Of a stretch of DNA of 55,043 bases, positions 39,740 to 45,485 are shown in pieces (the first letter of the stretch is position 1; the number at the start of each line of letters is the position of its first letter). The translations under genes and the position numbers were made by a program. The stretch lies in the IMG/VR virus record IMGVR_UViG_3300048838_000123, positions 1 to 55,043 of that record, one strand, 5' to 3'. The notes below the pieces were generated by a model. The model had not been told where the DNA came from. It was given only the letters and a program-made list of their open reading frames with translations, and made no database searches. The DNA is from a virus.

Positions 39740-40027
39740 ATGGATCGAAATGGAGGTATGACACGCGAAGAGATGCTCGCAAAGCTATCGCCTGAGGAAC
39801 GGGCACAACTCGCGGCCGAAGAGAACGCAGCCAACGCACCTGGGTTCGCAGTGGCAATGGCGCTGTTAGCCGCAGCGTGCTTCGGTGTCTCGATCGTTAC
39901 GGCATTGGTCGGCAAGGCAACAGGCGACGCCTTGTTTTGGGCCATAGCAGTTGTGGTCGCGTTGTTGGGCGTTGTGCCGAGCGTGGGCCTGCTGTGGGCA
40001 TTCTTTACTCGAGGGAACAATGGCTGA
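39740..40027 (+). CDS. Small two-span membrane protein
   Basis: This encodes 95 residues, with a charged N-terminus (MTREEMLAKLSPEERAQLAAE) then two hydrophobic segments at ~33-56 and 64-88. It starts behind AGGAGG and overlaps queC by eight bases. A role is not evident. Confidence 0.5.
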   Translation: MDRNGGMTREEMLAKLSPEERAQLAAEENAANAPGFAVAMALLAAACFGVSIVTALVGKATGDALFWAIAVVVALLGVVPSVGLLWAFFTRGNNG

Positions 40028-40724
40028 TCAAAAGGGATCTGTGGTAGTGATCAGTGGCGGGCTCGATAGCACTACGCTACTGCACTACGTTGTCAAGCGA
40101 CTGCGGCTGAATGACCAACCGATATTCGCATTGACGTTCGACTACGGGCAGACACTCGTACGCGAAATCGAATGCGCGAAGTACCAGTGCGAGCTTCTGG
40201 GCGTGCCTCACCAGGTCATCGATCTGAAGCACCTGGCACAGCAGCTGTTCAGCACCAGCGCGCTGCTGCAGGGCACAAGCATCCCAGACGTTGAAGCTGT
40301 GATGGGCGACCCACAGCCAGTGACGTACGTGCCGAATCGCAACACACTGTTCGTGGAGATCGCGACTGCGTTCGCCGAGAACAACAATTGCGATACGGTC
40401 TACATCGGAATCCAGCGGCACGACTTGTACGGCTACTGGGATACGACGCCGCAGTGGGCAAAGGCGATCAACGGTGTGCATGCATTGAATCGCAAGAACC
40501 AAGTGTGGGTCTCGGCACCGTTCGTCAACTACACCAAGGCAGCTGAACTCGAACTCGGCATAAAGCTGGGCGTCGACTACAGCAGGACCTGGTCTTGTTA
40601 CAAGGGCGGCGGGAAGGCATGCGGCGTGTGTGCAACCTGTGCCGAACGCATCGCGGCGTTCAAGGCGATTGAAGTCGTCGATCCCGTTCCTTACGAAATC
40701 GAGATCGACTGGAGTACCAAGTAA
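40020..40724 (+). CDS. queC: 7-cyano-7-deazaguanine synthase QueC
   Basis: This encodes 234 residues, starting at MADQKGSVVV. SGGLDST (12-18) is the PP-loop that binds ATP, and Cys193, Cys201, Cys204 and Cys207 are the four zinc ligands. QueC turns 7-carboxy-7-deazaguanine into preQ0 using ammonia and ATP. The next gene, a glutamine amidotransferase, overlaps it by one base and may supply ammonia for this step or for conversion to archaeosine. The length fits the family. Confidence 0.92.
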   Translation: MADQKGSVVVISGGLDSTTLLHYVVKRLRLNDQPIFALTFDYGQTLVREIECAKYQCELLGVPHQVIDLKHLAQQLFSTSALLQGTSIPDVEAVMGDPQPVTYVPNRNTLFVEIATAFAENNNCDTVYIGIQRHDLYGYWDTTPQWAKAINGVHALNRKNQVWVSAPFVNYTKAAELELGIKLGVDYSRTWSCYKGGGKACGVCATCAERIAAFKAIEVVDPVPYEIEIDWSTK

Positions 40725-41446
40725 TGTGTGGCATCTTCGGAGTGATCGGGGGTTCGCGTAAGCTGCGAGCGGCGCACATGCAACGCTTCCTGGAACTTGG
40801 GGAGTTGAACTCAAAGCGTGGCGGTCGCGGCTTCGGTTTGGTAGCGGGCAACAGGACGAGCACACTCTCGTTCCAACGTGGCACTGGCAACTTCGCTAGC
40901 CGCGAGTACGATGTGGATCTGCCGATCGGTGTGGACTTCTATCTCGGGCACACGCTGGCGCCGACCAATGGCGACGACGTTACACTCGAGCGCACACACC
41001 CGTTCGAGACAGATCGCTTCCTGTTGGCGCACAACGGTATCCTGCACAACAGCGATGACCTGTTCGCCGAGTGGGGTTTCTTCGAGAACTTGCCCGACAT
41101 CGACAGCGTTGCAATCCTGGCAGGCATCGTTCACTTCATCGCCGAGGGTGACAGCGTCGTCGATGCCATTGTGACTACGGCGTCAGCGTGCCAGGGACAG
41201 TTCGCTTGCTGGCTGTACGACAAGCAAGATGGCGGCATCTATCTGTGGCGAGTCATGTCACCAATCCATGTCGAGATCTATCGGAAGCACACCCCGAAGA
41301 TGCTGCTCTTCAGTTCTGAACCTACCGAGAAGTCAGTACTGATCCCGCAAGGCGAAGTGTTCTCGGTCACACAAGCGGCTGTGCTTACGCCAGTACGCAA
41401 GTTCACATTCTACGATCCCTACTATAGGGGTGAACATCATGCATGA
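40724..41446 (+). CDS. Class II glutamine amidotransferase next to QueC
   Basis: This encodes 240 residues. MCGIFGVIGG exposes Cys2 as nucleophile, and GHTLAPTNG and AHNGIL (Asn104, Gly105) complete the glutaminase site, so it should release ammonia from glutamine. In other phages and archaea a similar domain is fused in front of QueC (Gat-QueC) and the product is archaeosine-type base. Here it is a separate gene placed after queC. This favours deoxyarchaeosine or preQ0 in the DNA. Confidence 0.8.
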   Translation: MCGIFGVIGGSRKLRAAHMQRFLELGELNSKRGGRGFGLVAGNRTSTLSFQRGTGNFASREYDVDLPIGVDFYLGHTLAPTNGDDVTLERTHPFETDRFLLAHNGILHNSDDLFAEWGFFENLPDIDSVAILAGIVHFIAEGDSVVDAIVTTASACQGQFACWLYDKQDGGIYLWRVMSPIHVEIYRKHTPKMLLFSSEPTEKSVLIPQGEVFSVTQAAVLTPVRKFTFYDPYYRGEHHA

Positions 41447-41846
41447 GATCAGCAAAGAGTTCACGTTCAGTGCCAGCCACCAGTTGGGGCATCTCGAACG
41501 TGACGACCATCCATGTAAGCGATTGCATGGCCACAACTATATCGTTCGCGTAACGCTACGCGGTACACCAGACGCGAACGGCTTCGTACAGGACTACCGC
41601 GACTTGGACTTCTTCAAACGGTACATCGATGAAGTGTTCGATCACCAGCACCTGAACGAGGTCATGCAGCGCCTCTTCGACCTGCCGCCATATGGAGCAT
41701 CGCGGTTGACGACGGCAGAGAATTTGGCGACGTACTTCTACCACTGGATCGCCGAGAGCGGTAAGTGCCCAGGTCTCTACAGCGTGGCTGTCAGCGAGAC
41801 GCCAAAGACATGGGCGGTCTTCATCCCGGAGGTCGACAATGGATGA
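41439..41846 (+). CDS. queD: 6-carboxy-tetrahydropterin synthase QueD
   Basis: This encodes 135 residues. The ATG at 41439 is preferred to a GTG three codons upstream because AGGGG lies well placed. His14 (SASH), His30 and His32 (HGH) are the zinc ligands and Cys26 the catalytic cysteine. It converts dihydroneopterin triphosphate to carboxy-tetrahydropterin. It overlaps the amidotransferase stop by eight bases. Confidence 0.92.
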   Translation: MHEISKEFTFSASHQLGHLERDDHPCKRLHGHNYIVRVTLRGTPDANGFVQDYRDLDFFKRYIDEVFDHQHLNEVMQRLFDLPPYGASRLTTAENLATYFYHWIAESGKCPGLYSVAVSETPKTWAVFIPEVDNG

Positions 41847-42210
41847 TGTACGCCGAACACTTGAACAACGTGGCAGGCAGTACGAACAGGTAGGGCCTAC
41901 GTGGAAGATTGTCGGCCAGATCATCAGCACATTGAACTTGTCGGTGCTGCAGCGCACGCCATACACGCACAACTGGGTGCAGATCCTTGGCAAACTGATT
42001 CGCGCGCTGTCGTCGCCTAACGACCCAGAGCATTGGCGCGACATTGCCGGCTACGCAACATTAGTGCTGGACGACATTACTACTCAGCCGCCACCGACAG
42101 TTGCAAACTACAACAGCGACATGGTGCCGATTACTGAAGCGGACATAGAGAACGCACTACGTGGAGTAGTGCCTACAGGAGATAGCTATGACATCGTACC
42201 AGGTAAATGA
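41839..42210 (+). CDS. Hypothetical protein inside the deazaguanine cassette, DUF6378-like
   Basis: This encodes 123 residues, helical, with LEQRGRQYEQVGPTW at the N-terminus and HWRDIAGYATLVLDDI near 65-80, a pattern seen in small phage proteins labelled DUF6378. It overlaps queD by 8 bases and queE by 23. Its place between two base-synthesis genes suggests a link to nucleotide modification, but nothing catalytic is visible. Confidence 0.55.
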   Translation: MDDVRRTLEQRGRQYEQVGPTWKIVGQIISTLNLSVLQRTPYTHNWVQILGKLIRALSSPNDPEHWRDIAGYATLVLDDITTQPPPTVANYNSDMVPITEADIENALRGVVPTGDSYDIVPGK

Positions 42211-43240
42211 AATCTTTACAAGCGTGCAGGGCGAAGGTTACTGGGTGGGTGTGCCTTCGACGTTCATTCGTTTGCAGGGCTGCCCAGTCGGCTGCAAGTG
42301 GTGTGACAGTGTTCGCACTTGGGGACCAGGTTCGATCACCGAACACTACATGCGTGGCTGGCTGCAAGCAGGCCGACACTTGCCGTTCATGTCCGCGCAG
42401 CCGCAGATTGCCGATCTGGAACGCGAGTACGCGATGCAGCATGGCAGACCGCAGAGCGACTGGCCAGACGACAACTACGATACGCAACGAGGCTTCGTAG
42501 CAGGTGTGATCGATCGCGCCGCGATCTGGTGGCCCGCACGGCCCGAAGCAGCCGTGTCGTTTGCGGCGAGCGGCGAACTGCGCGAAGTGATGCTGACTCT
42601 GCTTCGCAAGCAAGGCATCGAACCTTACATCGATGAGTCGCCAGCCGTGCTCAGCGAGCAGATCATGGTTCCGATGGCGCAAACACAGCTGCTGTTGGAC
42701 TACTACCAACCACGCTTGCCGGTTGCTGGTTGGAAGCCGAATCGCAACGGCAAGCGCATGGTCGTCGATGACATCGTTGACTTGATCGACACGACGCACG
42801 TCATCATTACTGGCGGCGAACCGATCCTGTTCAATCTCGATCCGCTGATCAAAGCGATCCGCGAACGCGACTTGCGCTACATCGCGATCGAGACCAGCGG
42901 TGCCAGCGACTTCAAGGGCAAGGAACGCCCGCAGTGGATCACGTGGTCGCCGAAAGAGAACTTGGGCTTCGATGCGCCTGAAGAGTTCAAGACGCAAGTC
43001 AGCGAAGTGAAGTGGGTCGTCGACGACAAGTTCGAACTGGGCACGGCGATCAAGACAGCGGAGTGGATGGCCAATCACGGCAACGAACCTTCGTTCGTGT
43101 TCATGCCTGAAGGATGTCCGCCAAGCAAGGAGTCGCAGACAAAGGCGTTCGCGATGACGTTGGCGTTCGAACGACTGTTCGGTCATCGCCTGCCAACTCG
43201 GTTCGGGACGCGACTTCAGTACACGTTGGGGGTGCGGTAA
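42188..43240 (+). CDS. queE: 7-carboxy-7-deazaguanine synthase QueE, enlarged
   Basis: This encodes 350 residues against about 210-250 in usual QueE. QGEGYWVGVPSTFIRLQGC leads to Cys32, Cys36 and Cys39 (CxxxCxxC), the radical-SAM iron-sulfur site. TGGEP follows only at 208-212, about 100 residues later than normal. The insert (~50-190) is Trp- and acid-rich and has no motif I know. It rearranges carboxy-tetrahydropterin to carboxy-deazaguanine. Some longer QueE proteins have extra roles; whether this one does is open. Confidence 0.88.
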   Translation: MTSYQVNEIFTSVQGEGYWVGVPSTFIRLQGCPVGCKWCDSVRTWGPGSITEHYMRGWLQAGRHLPFMSAQPQIADLEREYAMQHGRPQSDWPDDNYDTQRGFVAGVIDRAAIWWPARPEAAVSFAASGELREVMLTLLRKQGIEPYIDESPAVLSEQIMVPMAQTQLLLDYYQPRLPVAGWKPNRNGKRMVVDDIVDLIDTTHVIITGGEPILFNLDPLIKAIRERDLRYIAIETSGASDFKGKERPQWITWSPKENLGFDAPEEFKTQVSEVKWVVDDKFELGTAIKTAEWMANHGNEPSFVFMPEGCPPSKESQTKAFAMTLAFERLFGHRLPTRFGTRLQYTLGVR

Positions 43241-43413
43241 TGGCACCACAAGGCGTTCAGTCTCCACAACCAACAGCACGCGACGCGCAGGCCAGGACGC
43301 AAGCGCGAACTGTGGGGCAACTCGTTCTCGTTATCCTGGCAGCGTCATTGGTGTGCAACTGCGTGCTGTTCAGTACTACCGTTGCACTGTTGGGGGCAGC
43401 AAGTGGCAAGTAA
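43240..43413 (+). CDS. Small single-span membrane protein
   Basis: This encodes 57 residues whose ATG overlaps the queE stop (TAATG). A Gln/Thr/Arg-rich N-terminus precedes one hydrophobic span (LVLVILAASLVCNCVLFSTT) with two cysteines. It may be a filler or anchor; unknown function. Confidence 0.5.
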   Translation: MAPQGVQSPQPTARDAQARTQARTVGQLVLVILAASLVCNCVLFSTTVALLGAASGK

Positions 43414-43453
43414 GAAGACATTCAACCCGCTAACAAAGCGCATTGAGGAGACA

Positions 43454-44011
43454 ATGAAACCCATTGAAGATGTGGCGCGACTCGCCGACATGTTGACAGA
43501 TATCTTTGGCGTCGAAGCGTTCGATGATGGCGCAGCACAGACAGCTCGCCGCGTGTTCGAGATGTGGCAAGAGTTCGCACCTGAACACGAGATCCCATTC
43601 AAGTTCACGACCTTCGAATGTACCGACCCGCAGATGATCGTGTGTGACCATATCGAGTTCAGCAGCTTGTGTGCACACCACCTATTGCCGTTCTATGGCT
43701 ACGCACATGTCGCGTACATTCCCGCCAAGCTGCAAGTCGGCCTGAGCAAGATCCCGCGACTCGTCAAGTGGCTTGCGAAGCGGCCGCAGGTGCAGGAACA
43801 GCTGACAGCCCAGATCGCCAACGAGATGAAGCATCGACTGGACGCGCATGGCGTAATGGTCGTTGTGGAAGCGCGCCATACGTGCATGTCATGTCGCGGC
43901 GTCGAAGCGCACAATGGCATGATGCGAACGTCGCTGCCAAAGGGTGTGTTCCTATCTAGCCCGGCTGCACGCGACGAGTTCTTTGAACTGATCAAGAGGA
44001 ACGCGCTATGA
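43454..44011 (+). CDS. folE: GTP cyclohydrolase I
   Basis: This encodes 185 residues. The ATG at 43454 has GAGGAG five bases before it; the earlier GTG at 43403 is a weaker alternative. Cys73 and His76 (CAHHLLPF) and Cys144 (HTCMSCRG) bind zinc. VGLSKIPRL is the family signature. It opens GTP to dihydroneopterin triphosphate, the first step to preQ0. With QueD, QueE and QueC the phage has the full route and need not rely on host enzymes. Confidence 0.9.
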   Translation: MKPIEDVARLADMLTDIFGVEAFDDGAAQTARRVFEMWQEFAPEHEIPFKFTTFECTDPQMIVCDHIEFSSLCAHHLLPFYGYAHVAYIPAKLQVGLSKIPRLVKWLAKRPQVQEQLTAQIANEMKHRLDAHGVMVVVEARHTCMSCRGVEAHNGMMRTSLPKGVFLSSPAARDEFFELIKRNAL

Positions 44012-44748
44012 AGTATGCCCCCATCACACATGACGTCGACGCACTGGCAGCTGTCGTTCGCGAAACACATTGCGCGTACCACATGTGTTTGGCACCGGCA
44101 GTGTTGCGCGACGATCACTATCGCATAGCGTACGCAGGGCTGGCAAGGCGCGGGCACTTCATCATACTGGACAACGGCGCGGCTGAAGGGCAACGACTCG
44201 ACACTACCGATCTGATATCGGCGGCGAACAAAGTCAGCGCCGATGAGGTTGTGCTACCTGACGTACTGCGCGACAAAGAAGCAACGCTGGCACTGATGCT
44301 GGACGACAGAGTGCTGAACGCGATCCCGCCGGCAATGCGCTGTGTCATTCCACAAGGCGATACGATCGAAGAGTGGTGTGCCTGCTACGACGAGCTCGAT
44401 GTGTTGATCTCGTTTGCGACTGTCGGCATCCCGAAGCATCTCGAACGCTTCCCACAAGGTCGCGCGCAGGCATTGGCACATGTGATCGAACGGGGCGGGC
44501 ATGCGAAGTACAACGTGCACATGTTCGGTGTGTGGGGCGATCTGTACGCTGAGCTCGAGAACGTGCGAGCGTGGAACATGCGGCCATTCATTCGCGGCAT
44601 TGATAGCGCGCTACCGTTTGCGTTGGCACAGCGCGGCGTACACTTGGTCGGCCACAACGGCATCCATGTCTCGTACGAGTGGGGCAAGGCATTCGATCAC
44701 AAGTTGGCTGTGGAGAACGTTGCGACAGCCATGAAGTTCTGCCACTGA
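44008..44748 (+). CDS. dpdA: DpdA-like DNA transglycosylase, active copy
   Basis: This encodes 246 residues of the tRNA-guanine transglycosylase superfamily that swaps guanine for a deazaguanine base in DNA. FIILDNGAAEG gives Asp55, VVLPDV Asp85 and RGIDSALPF Asp199, matching the base- and nucleophile-carrying segments. VIPQGDTIEEW and NVHMFGV (His171) are further family positions. It overlaps folE by four bases and the second copy by one. It is likely the catalytic subunit that inserts preQ0 into phage DNA. Confidence 0.82.
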   Translation: MKYAPITHDVDALAAVVRETHCAYHMCLAPAVLRDDHYRIAYAGLARRGHFIILDNGAAEGQRLDTTDLISAANKVSADEVVLPDVLRDKEATLALMLDDRVLNAIPPAMRCVIPQGDTIEEWCACYDELDVLISFATVGIPKHLERFPQGRAQALAHVIERGGHAKYNVHMFGVWGDLYAELENVRAWNMRPFIRGIDSALPFALAQRGVHLVGHNGIHVSYEWGKAFDHKLAVENVATAMKFCH

Positions 44749-45485
44749 TGAAACTGGCATTGGTAATGCCCACAGCTCACCTGAAGCTGTTGAACACGCT
44801 CCGCATGGGCTACCAGGAGCTCGACTTGCAGCGCGTGCTGATGAAGGAACCTTGGTACACAACTATCTACCAGCGCATGCAGCATCGCGGACACTACATC
44901 ATCGCCAACGTTGGTCTCGCAGGTTCGCAGATGCGGCCAGGCGACATAACGAAGGCGCTGTCGATCTATGAACGCGAGATAGACGAGTTCGTGTTGCCGA
45001 GCGTACCTCGCGACATCAATGCAACGCTACGACTGGCGACTAGCGATGAAGCACAGCTCGTGGCTAGGCACACCCGCGTAATGGCTGTGCCGCAGGGCGC
45101 TACTATCGATGAATGGTTCGATTGCATGTACGCGTTAGTCGCAATGTTCAGCAGGGCAGTTGTCGCTGTGGGCATTCCAGCCTACTACGAAGACATCGGG
45201 CGCGCAAGGATCATCGAGCGCATTAAGGAAGACAATCTGTTACACGGCAAGTGCGTTCACCTGTTTGGCATTCACAACCATCCGCAAAGAGAGATACAGC
45301 AACTAGAACGCACTGGCATGGTGCGGGGTATCTCGACTGCGGTTGCATGTTCGTATGCACAGACAGGTCACGCAGTGTGGGCAGACAAGCCGGTCGAGCG
45401 CTTTGACATTGGCGCACGGCCGAACCGAGAACTAGTCACGAACAACATACACATACTACTGAGGTGGTGCAATGGCGGACGTTAA
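44748..45485 (+). CDS. DpdA paralog lacking catalytic aspartates
   Basis: This encodes 245 residues that align along nearly their whole length with the product just upstream (RGHYIIANVGLAG, VLPSVPRD, MAVPQGATIDEW, VHLFGIH, VRGISTAV). The three aspartates of the active copy are replaced: Asp55 by Asn54, Asp85 by Ser85 and Asp199 by Ser196. The fold should persist but not the chemistry. It probably pairs with the active copy as a structural or substrate-reading subunit, like QTRT2 in eukaryotic queuine enzyme. It overlaps polymerase by 14 bases. Confidence 0.75.
   Translation: MKLALVMPTAHLKLLNTLRMGYQELDLQRVLMKEPWYTTIYQRMQHRGHYIIANVGLAGSQMRPGDITKALSIYEREIDEFVLPSVPRDINATLRLATSDEAQLVARHTRVMAVPQGATIDEWFDCMYALVAMFSRAVVAVGIPAYYEDIGRARIIERIKEDNLLHGKCVHLFGIHNHPQREIQQLERTGMVRGISTAVACSYAQTGHAVWADKPVERFDIGARPNRELVTNNIHILLRWCNGGR

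Follow-up and report, generated by a model that had tools for sequence, protein, structure and literature searches.

A predicted DpdA-type transglycosylase followed by a probably catalytically dead twin in one uncultured phage genome

Introduction

Eukaryotic tRNA-guanine transglycosylase (TGT) consists of the active subunit QTRT1 and the inactive subunit QTRT2 (D279 changed to E and D105 to C), both of which are needed (PMC6165067). In the TGT of Z. mobilis, Asp280 is the nucleophile and Asp102 is the general base (PMC6165067). The DpdA of phage 9g, together with Gat-QueC, modified plasmid DNA in E. coli without any other phage subunit and without the TGT of E. coli (PMC6884629), and its residue H196 is the histidine that separates DpdA from DpdA2, in which it is absent (Hutinet et al., PMC6884629). 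The DpdA enzymes described so far are known as single gene products.

The stretch of DNA analyzed here (the window) comprised all 55,043 nucleotides of the IMG/VR virus record IMGVR_UViG_3300048838_000123. It contained a predicted DpdA-type enzyme (A) accompanied by a probably dead twin (B), a combination seen in this one uncultured phage genome. If A and B work together, the pair would split catalysis and DNA recognition into two separately testable genes, and would repeat independently the step of the eukaryotic tRNA enzyme to a heterodimer. Apart from B, the compact DpdA-like family to which A belongs was widespread in phages and otherwise single-copy.

Gene organization of the locus

The features of the locus were as follows.

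39951..40724, + strand, QueC-like protein (preQ0 synthase); Pfam QueC 8.5e-54, PHROG 1550
40724..41446, + strand, class II glutamine amidotransferase starting with MCGIFG; Pfam GATase_6 1.6e-6
41430..41846, + strand, QueD-like protein (6-carboxytetrahydropterin synthase); Pfam PTPS 2e-29
42188..43240, + strand, QueE-like radical SAM protein with an internal insertion; PHROG 2076 QueE 2.4e-25
43382..44011, + strand, FolE (GTP cyclohydrolase I); Pfam GTP_cyclohydroI 5.6e-52
44008..44748, + strand, A, DpdA-type (TGT-fold) transglycosylase, predicted catalytic, 246 aa
44748..45485, + strand, B, predicted TGT-fold pseudoenzyme, paralog of A, 245 aa
45472..47805, + strand, fusion of a UDG domain and a family A DNA polymerase (UDG-PolA); Pfam DNA_pol_A 2.3e-92, UDG 4.5e-20

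The computed gene context placed A in a full 7-deazaguanine gene cluster, with QueC, the amidotransferase, QueD, QueE and FolE upstream and B and UDG-PolA downstream. The stop of FolE overlapped the start of A (ATGA), the TGA of A and the ATG of the head-to-tail gene B overlapped as TGATG, and the start of UDG-PolA overlapped the end of B by 14 bases. Both open reading frames of the tandem pair that a sequence-only reading had placed at 44008-45485 were found there, and BLASTP aligned 223 residues of their products with 29% identity (E 2e-22). The global alignment score of A and B was 194.5, compared with -47 ± 14 for 500 shuffles. An assembly artefact is unlikely, since the two copies share only about 30% identity and both neighbours are overlapped in a frame-consistent manner. 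As A and B are paralogs in one overlapping operon, their translation is likely coupled.

Linkage to the preQ0/archaeosine synthesis genes was found in the window and likewise in relatives. The same gene order with a single transglycosylase gene was present in Weizmannia phage Youna2, Bacillus phage BSP7, Brevundimonas phage StAshley and many IMG/VR contigs, and was partly matched in Cellulophaga phi13:1 and Flavobacterium immuto; the record of the latter annotates its phrog_20335-family gene as DpdA. The presence of QueC and the amidotransferase at 39951-41446 suggests that the phage base would be amidated (dG+ or dADG) instead of preQ0. These two overlapping genes are separate, similar to the Gat-QueC fusion of 9g split in two. 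A similar free amidotransferase was found among the relatives in L071 only, and a tie between B and the amidotransferase was rejected because L071 carries one transglycosylase.

Predicted structures of A and B

AlphaFold2 models of A and B were built from alignments of 33 window and locus proteins and had mean pLDDT values of 96.2 and 90.7, respectively. Because active relatives made up the alignment behind the model of B, the fold of this model is in part borrowed from them. A comparison of the A model with the PDB revealed tRNA-guanine transglycosylases as the matches (best Foldseek E 4e-7), and the best VIA Z score was 17.7 for the archaeal TGT 1iq8, with an rmsd of 3.2 over 228 residues. 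The B model gave Z scores of 17.1 for 1iq8 and 15.9 for the DpdA 7ui4 (a DNA preQ0 insertase), and the comparisons of A and B with 1iq8 spanned 227-228 residues. The TIM-barrel fold of TGT was therefore found in both predicted structures. The C-terminal zinc site (CxCxxC...H) of tRNA TGT proper, which is CDCYTC in E. coli TGT, was absent from the sequences of A and B.

Profile alignment (hhalign) of A with the DpdA of phage 9g paired D55 with D72, D85 with D114, H171 with H196 and D199 with D215; the E value of 0.005 was weak, but the four motifs were in register (LDNG/LDSG, LPD/LDG, HMFG/HGFG and RGID/CDSS). The DpdA-type histidine (H171) was present in A, in B and in all 145 distinct relatives, which were gathered by profile scans of viral and genome contigs. 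The TGT/DpdA relationship that had been proposed for A and B was thus borne out by the predicted folds, the structure comparison and the register of the 9g motifs.

Sequence searches placed A and its relatives in the family phrog_20335, and no Pfam or NCBIfam match was obtained for A or B. When A or B alone was searched against the PDB by sequence, no match appeared, and a profile search of the PDB returned chance matches only. The NCBIfam DpdA model NF041059 matched neither A nor B. It matched the relatives L022, L036 and L028 at 4.5e-6 to 0.003, with a best score of 25.7 bits against a cut-off of 200, and in some relatives the match spanned the second to the third Asp motif. The phrog_20335 proteins are a widespread, compact DpdA-like group that is largely unannotated in public phage genomes. 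Further DpdA subfamilies (DpdA3 and DpdA4) were reportedly described by Cui et al. in 2023, and the family of A may be one of them.

A resembles the DpdA of 9g and the bacterial DpdA (7ui4) in its TGT fold, and shares with 9g DpdA the Asp motifs, the histidine corresponding to H196 and a location in a preQ0/archaeosine cluster next to a replication polymerase. In contrast to DpdA, A is shorter (246 aa), is too diverged for a Pfam match and is followed by an inactive paralog. Given the fold, the residues, the histidine and the gene context, it is likely, with good confidence, that A exchanges guanine in DNA.

Loss of the active site in B

The catalytic Asp motifs of DpdA were present in A and replaced in B. 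Residues D55, D85 and D199 of A aligned with N54, S85 and S196 of B, whereas the motifs RGH(F/Y)II, PQGxTIxEW and H(M/L)FG were common to both proteins; these substitutions and conserved motifs had all been quoted correctly in the sequence-only reading. The column of D55 contained Asp in 144/144 distinct relatives, that of D85 contained Asp in 142 and Glu in 2 of 144, and that of D199 contained Asp in 145/145. The counts at each catalytic column were stable as the alignment grew from 37 to 87, 113 and 144 sequences. Together with the alignment to 9g DpdA, this near-invariance agrees with the earlier assignment of the three aspartates as catalytic.

Further losses were observed in the pocket motifs of B. 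The near-invariant N56 was replaced by V55, E60 of the LDNGxxE motif was missing, and the K/R143 column contained alanine. Conservation reached at least 80% of the relatives in 25 columns, of which B retained 17. Five of the eight lost columns were D55, N56, E60, D85 and D199, and the other three changes were mild (I6V, L173F and P203A), so the losses fell mainly on the active site (hypergeometric p ~0.001, calculated by hand). The active-site residues were intact in A and lost in B. Since all three acids are invariant or nearly so in the 145 relatives and all are replaced in B, unlike in any of those relatives, B almost certainly has no transglycosylase activity, as had been proposed, and its sequence makes it very probably a pseudoenzyme. 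It is highly improbable that B is an active enzyme with a changed chemistry or other catalytic residues: the pocket-region residues Q117, the G117 equivalent, H171 and G174 are kept, but no acid is left at the three positions, and N56, E60 and K/R143 are also gone.

Distribution of the gene pair

Viral contigs gave no match when scanned with A or B as a single query protein, and profile scans were required to find relatives. No match to B was obtained by tblastn against 50,697 phage records. A search of all locus ORFs with the family HMM revealed 226 loci with a match, some of them on the same contig, and each carried a single copy except the window. In the whole records of 32 relatives, one copy was found in 31 and none in one, and B as the query led to the same single places. 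The profile scan of genome contigs found one locus (L134) with one copy. The single copies in relatives had all the catalytic residues. A second transglycosylase copy was found in none of the 225 other loci or the 31 whole records, although near-identical records may lie outside the searched set. The pair was therefore found once, in the window, and was not conserved in a lineage. The sequence-only reading had proposed that A and B would be a new form of DpdA and had suggested a search for the same pair with conserved substitutions in other phages. Its views on the TGT/DpdA relationship, the catalytic aspartates and the inactivity of B held, whereas the recurrence of the form did not.

The presence of one copy in these loci and records indicates that a partner is not generally needed. 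Cellulophaga phiST and phi13:1, Weizmannia Youna2, Bacillus BSP7, Flavobacterium immuto and Brevundimonas StAshley carry members of the family of A (phrog_20335) in the same order beside a family A polymerase, but differ from the window in having one copy with all catalytic residues. Likewise, 9g DpdA is one gene product, whereas the window has A and B. A could be the whole DNA-modifying enzyme and B an independent protein, such as a DNA- or base-binding regulator, a PolA chaperone or a counter-defence decoy, instead of a subunit of A. For 9g DpdA and the relatives, activity without a partner is either known or expected (PMC6884629). The gene for B lies between A and UDG-PolA with its 14-base overlap into polA, and many relatives have an unrelated small ORF at the same place, which implies that accessory genes are accommodated there. 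Nevertheless, the paralogy and the overlap with A make a partnership simpler, and no sign of another domain was found in B; an independent role is unlikely, though it deserves serious consideration.

Origin and maintenance of B

B persisted as a coding gene. Its frame ran through 245 codons without interruption, its product shared about 30% identity with each relative, and its GC contents at the three codon positions (0.60, 0.40 and 0.65) resembled those of the neighbouring genes. When the DNA of A was drifted neutrally to 45% protein identity, several stops were produced and a stop-free frame was retained in 0 of 300 simulations. The open frame and the simulation argue for long-term selection on B as a protein, which concerns the past and is a separate matter from current function; drift of B alone may have occurred in the most recent period.

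The nearest relatives of B that were found had no more than about 37% identity to it, with the reservation that near-identical records may be outside the searched set. Two trees grouped B with A, L011-L013, L063, L065 and others in one clade; the support was weak, and the branch of B was long, the longest or nearly the longest of the clade (1.66 and 2.06 in the two trees). B scored higher against the proteins of L065 and L063 than against A, and is therefore not simply a recent duplicate of A. A recent tandem copy was not supported, as B was equally far from A and the other clade members and aligned better with L065 and L063. Judged from these alignments, B may have arisen by an older duplication or have been acquired from a related phage.

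According to another explanation, B would be a relic: the phage would have received a second transglycosylase gene from a relative, and this gene would since have lost its activity without yet being deleted. B was unconserved in all relatives found, and its branch length would be consistent with decay. However, 245 unbroken codons at about 30% identity are not expected from drift that yields several stops, the losses cluster at the active site while the structural motifs remain, and the predicted fold is confident. A relic is accordingly improbable. A decaying, unconserved duplicate had been named beforehand as an outcome that would speak against a functional pair; the lack of conservation was confirmed among the relatives found, whereas the intact frame, the coding composition, the motifs and the fold showed no obvious decay.

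Proposed mechanism

In the proposed mechanism, FolE, QueD, QueE and QueC would make the 7-deazaguanine base, the adjacent glutamine amidotransferase would probably amidate it, and A would exchange guanine in the phage DNA for this base. Modification of DNA by A is inferred from the known chemistry of TGT and DpdA. Asp199 of A would attack the sugar of the target guanosine to give a covalent intermediate, with Asp55 as the acid/base and Asp85 and Gln116 holding the base. The ancestor of B would have been an active enzyme of this phage clade, and B would have kept the barrel while losing the three acids and neighbouring pocket residues. As the non-catalytic partner of A, B would most simply stand in for the second subunit of a homodimer and contact the DNA. 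The net charge of B was +4, compared with -7 for A and a range from -16 to +2 among 18 clade members, so that B was the most basic of the clade members examined, which is compatible with contact with nucleic acid and proves nothing.

Only by analogy with QTRT1/QTRT2 would B bind A and help with the substrate. Both pairs consist of two TGT-fold paralogs, one with the catalytic acids and the other without. QTRT1/QTRT2 differs in its tRNA substrate, its zinc domain, its occurrence throughout eukaryotes and its proven heterodimer, whereas A/B is known from genes and monomer models and was found once. Because the acids were lost in none of the 145 relatives, A/B may be a two-part version of a single-gene enzyme. 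The most likely reading takes A as a compact DNA transglycosylase of the DpdA type and B as its lineage-specific non-catalytic partner; the partner role of B has about an even chance. The fuller proposal, a two-subunit phage DNA-guanine transglycosylase with a catalytic subunit and a pseudoenzyme subunit that sets the target or positions the DNA, as an independently arisen counterpart of QTRT1/QTRT2, is tentative and falls slightly short of an even chance.

Other features of the locus and its relatives

The QueE-like protein of the window was longer than the 210-aa QueE of L012: about 135 additional residues separated its CxxxCxxC region from its GGEP motif. The UDG-PolA fusion, with UDG at the N terminus of the polymerase, was also present in close relatives. 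In L011, L014, L059, L061, L064, L066, L068, L069, L070 and L074, the place of B between the transglycosylase gene and polA was occupied by a small conserved ORF (about 80 aa; MHIxxKD...CIER...GW...VVMxK), whose product vaguely resembled the end of a GNAT acetyltransferase. The window, like L056, L065 and L080, lacked this ORF; as these three relatives lack B too, the idea that B replaced it was weak. The transglycosylase gene of Youna2 and that of BSP7 were directly preceded by a P-loop kinase-like gene (GCDKTGKST; L001, 7429-7980; L002, 7342-7905). In Arthrobacter phage Sonali (L054, 1-610 and 2980-3870), two distinct genes that lie six genes apart, gp81 and gp87, are annotated as queuine tRNA-ribosyltransferases; the DNG/DSG, PD/LD and CDS/TDS motifs were present in both products, and both looked catalytic.
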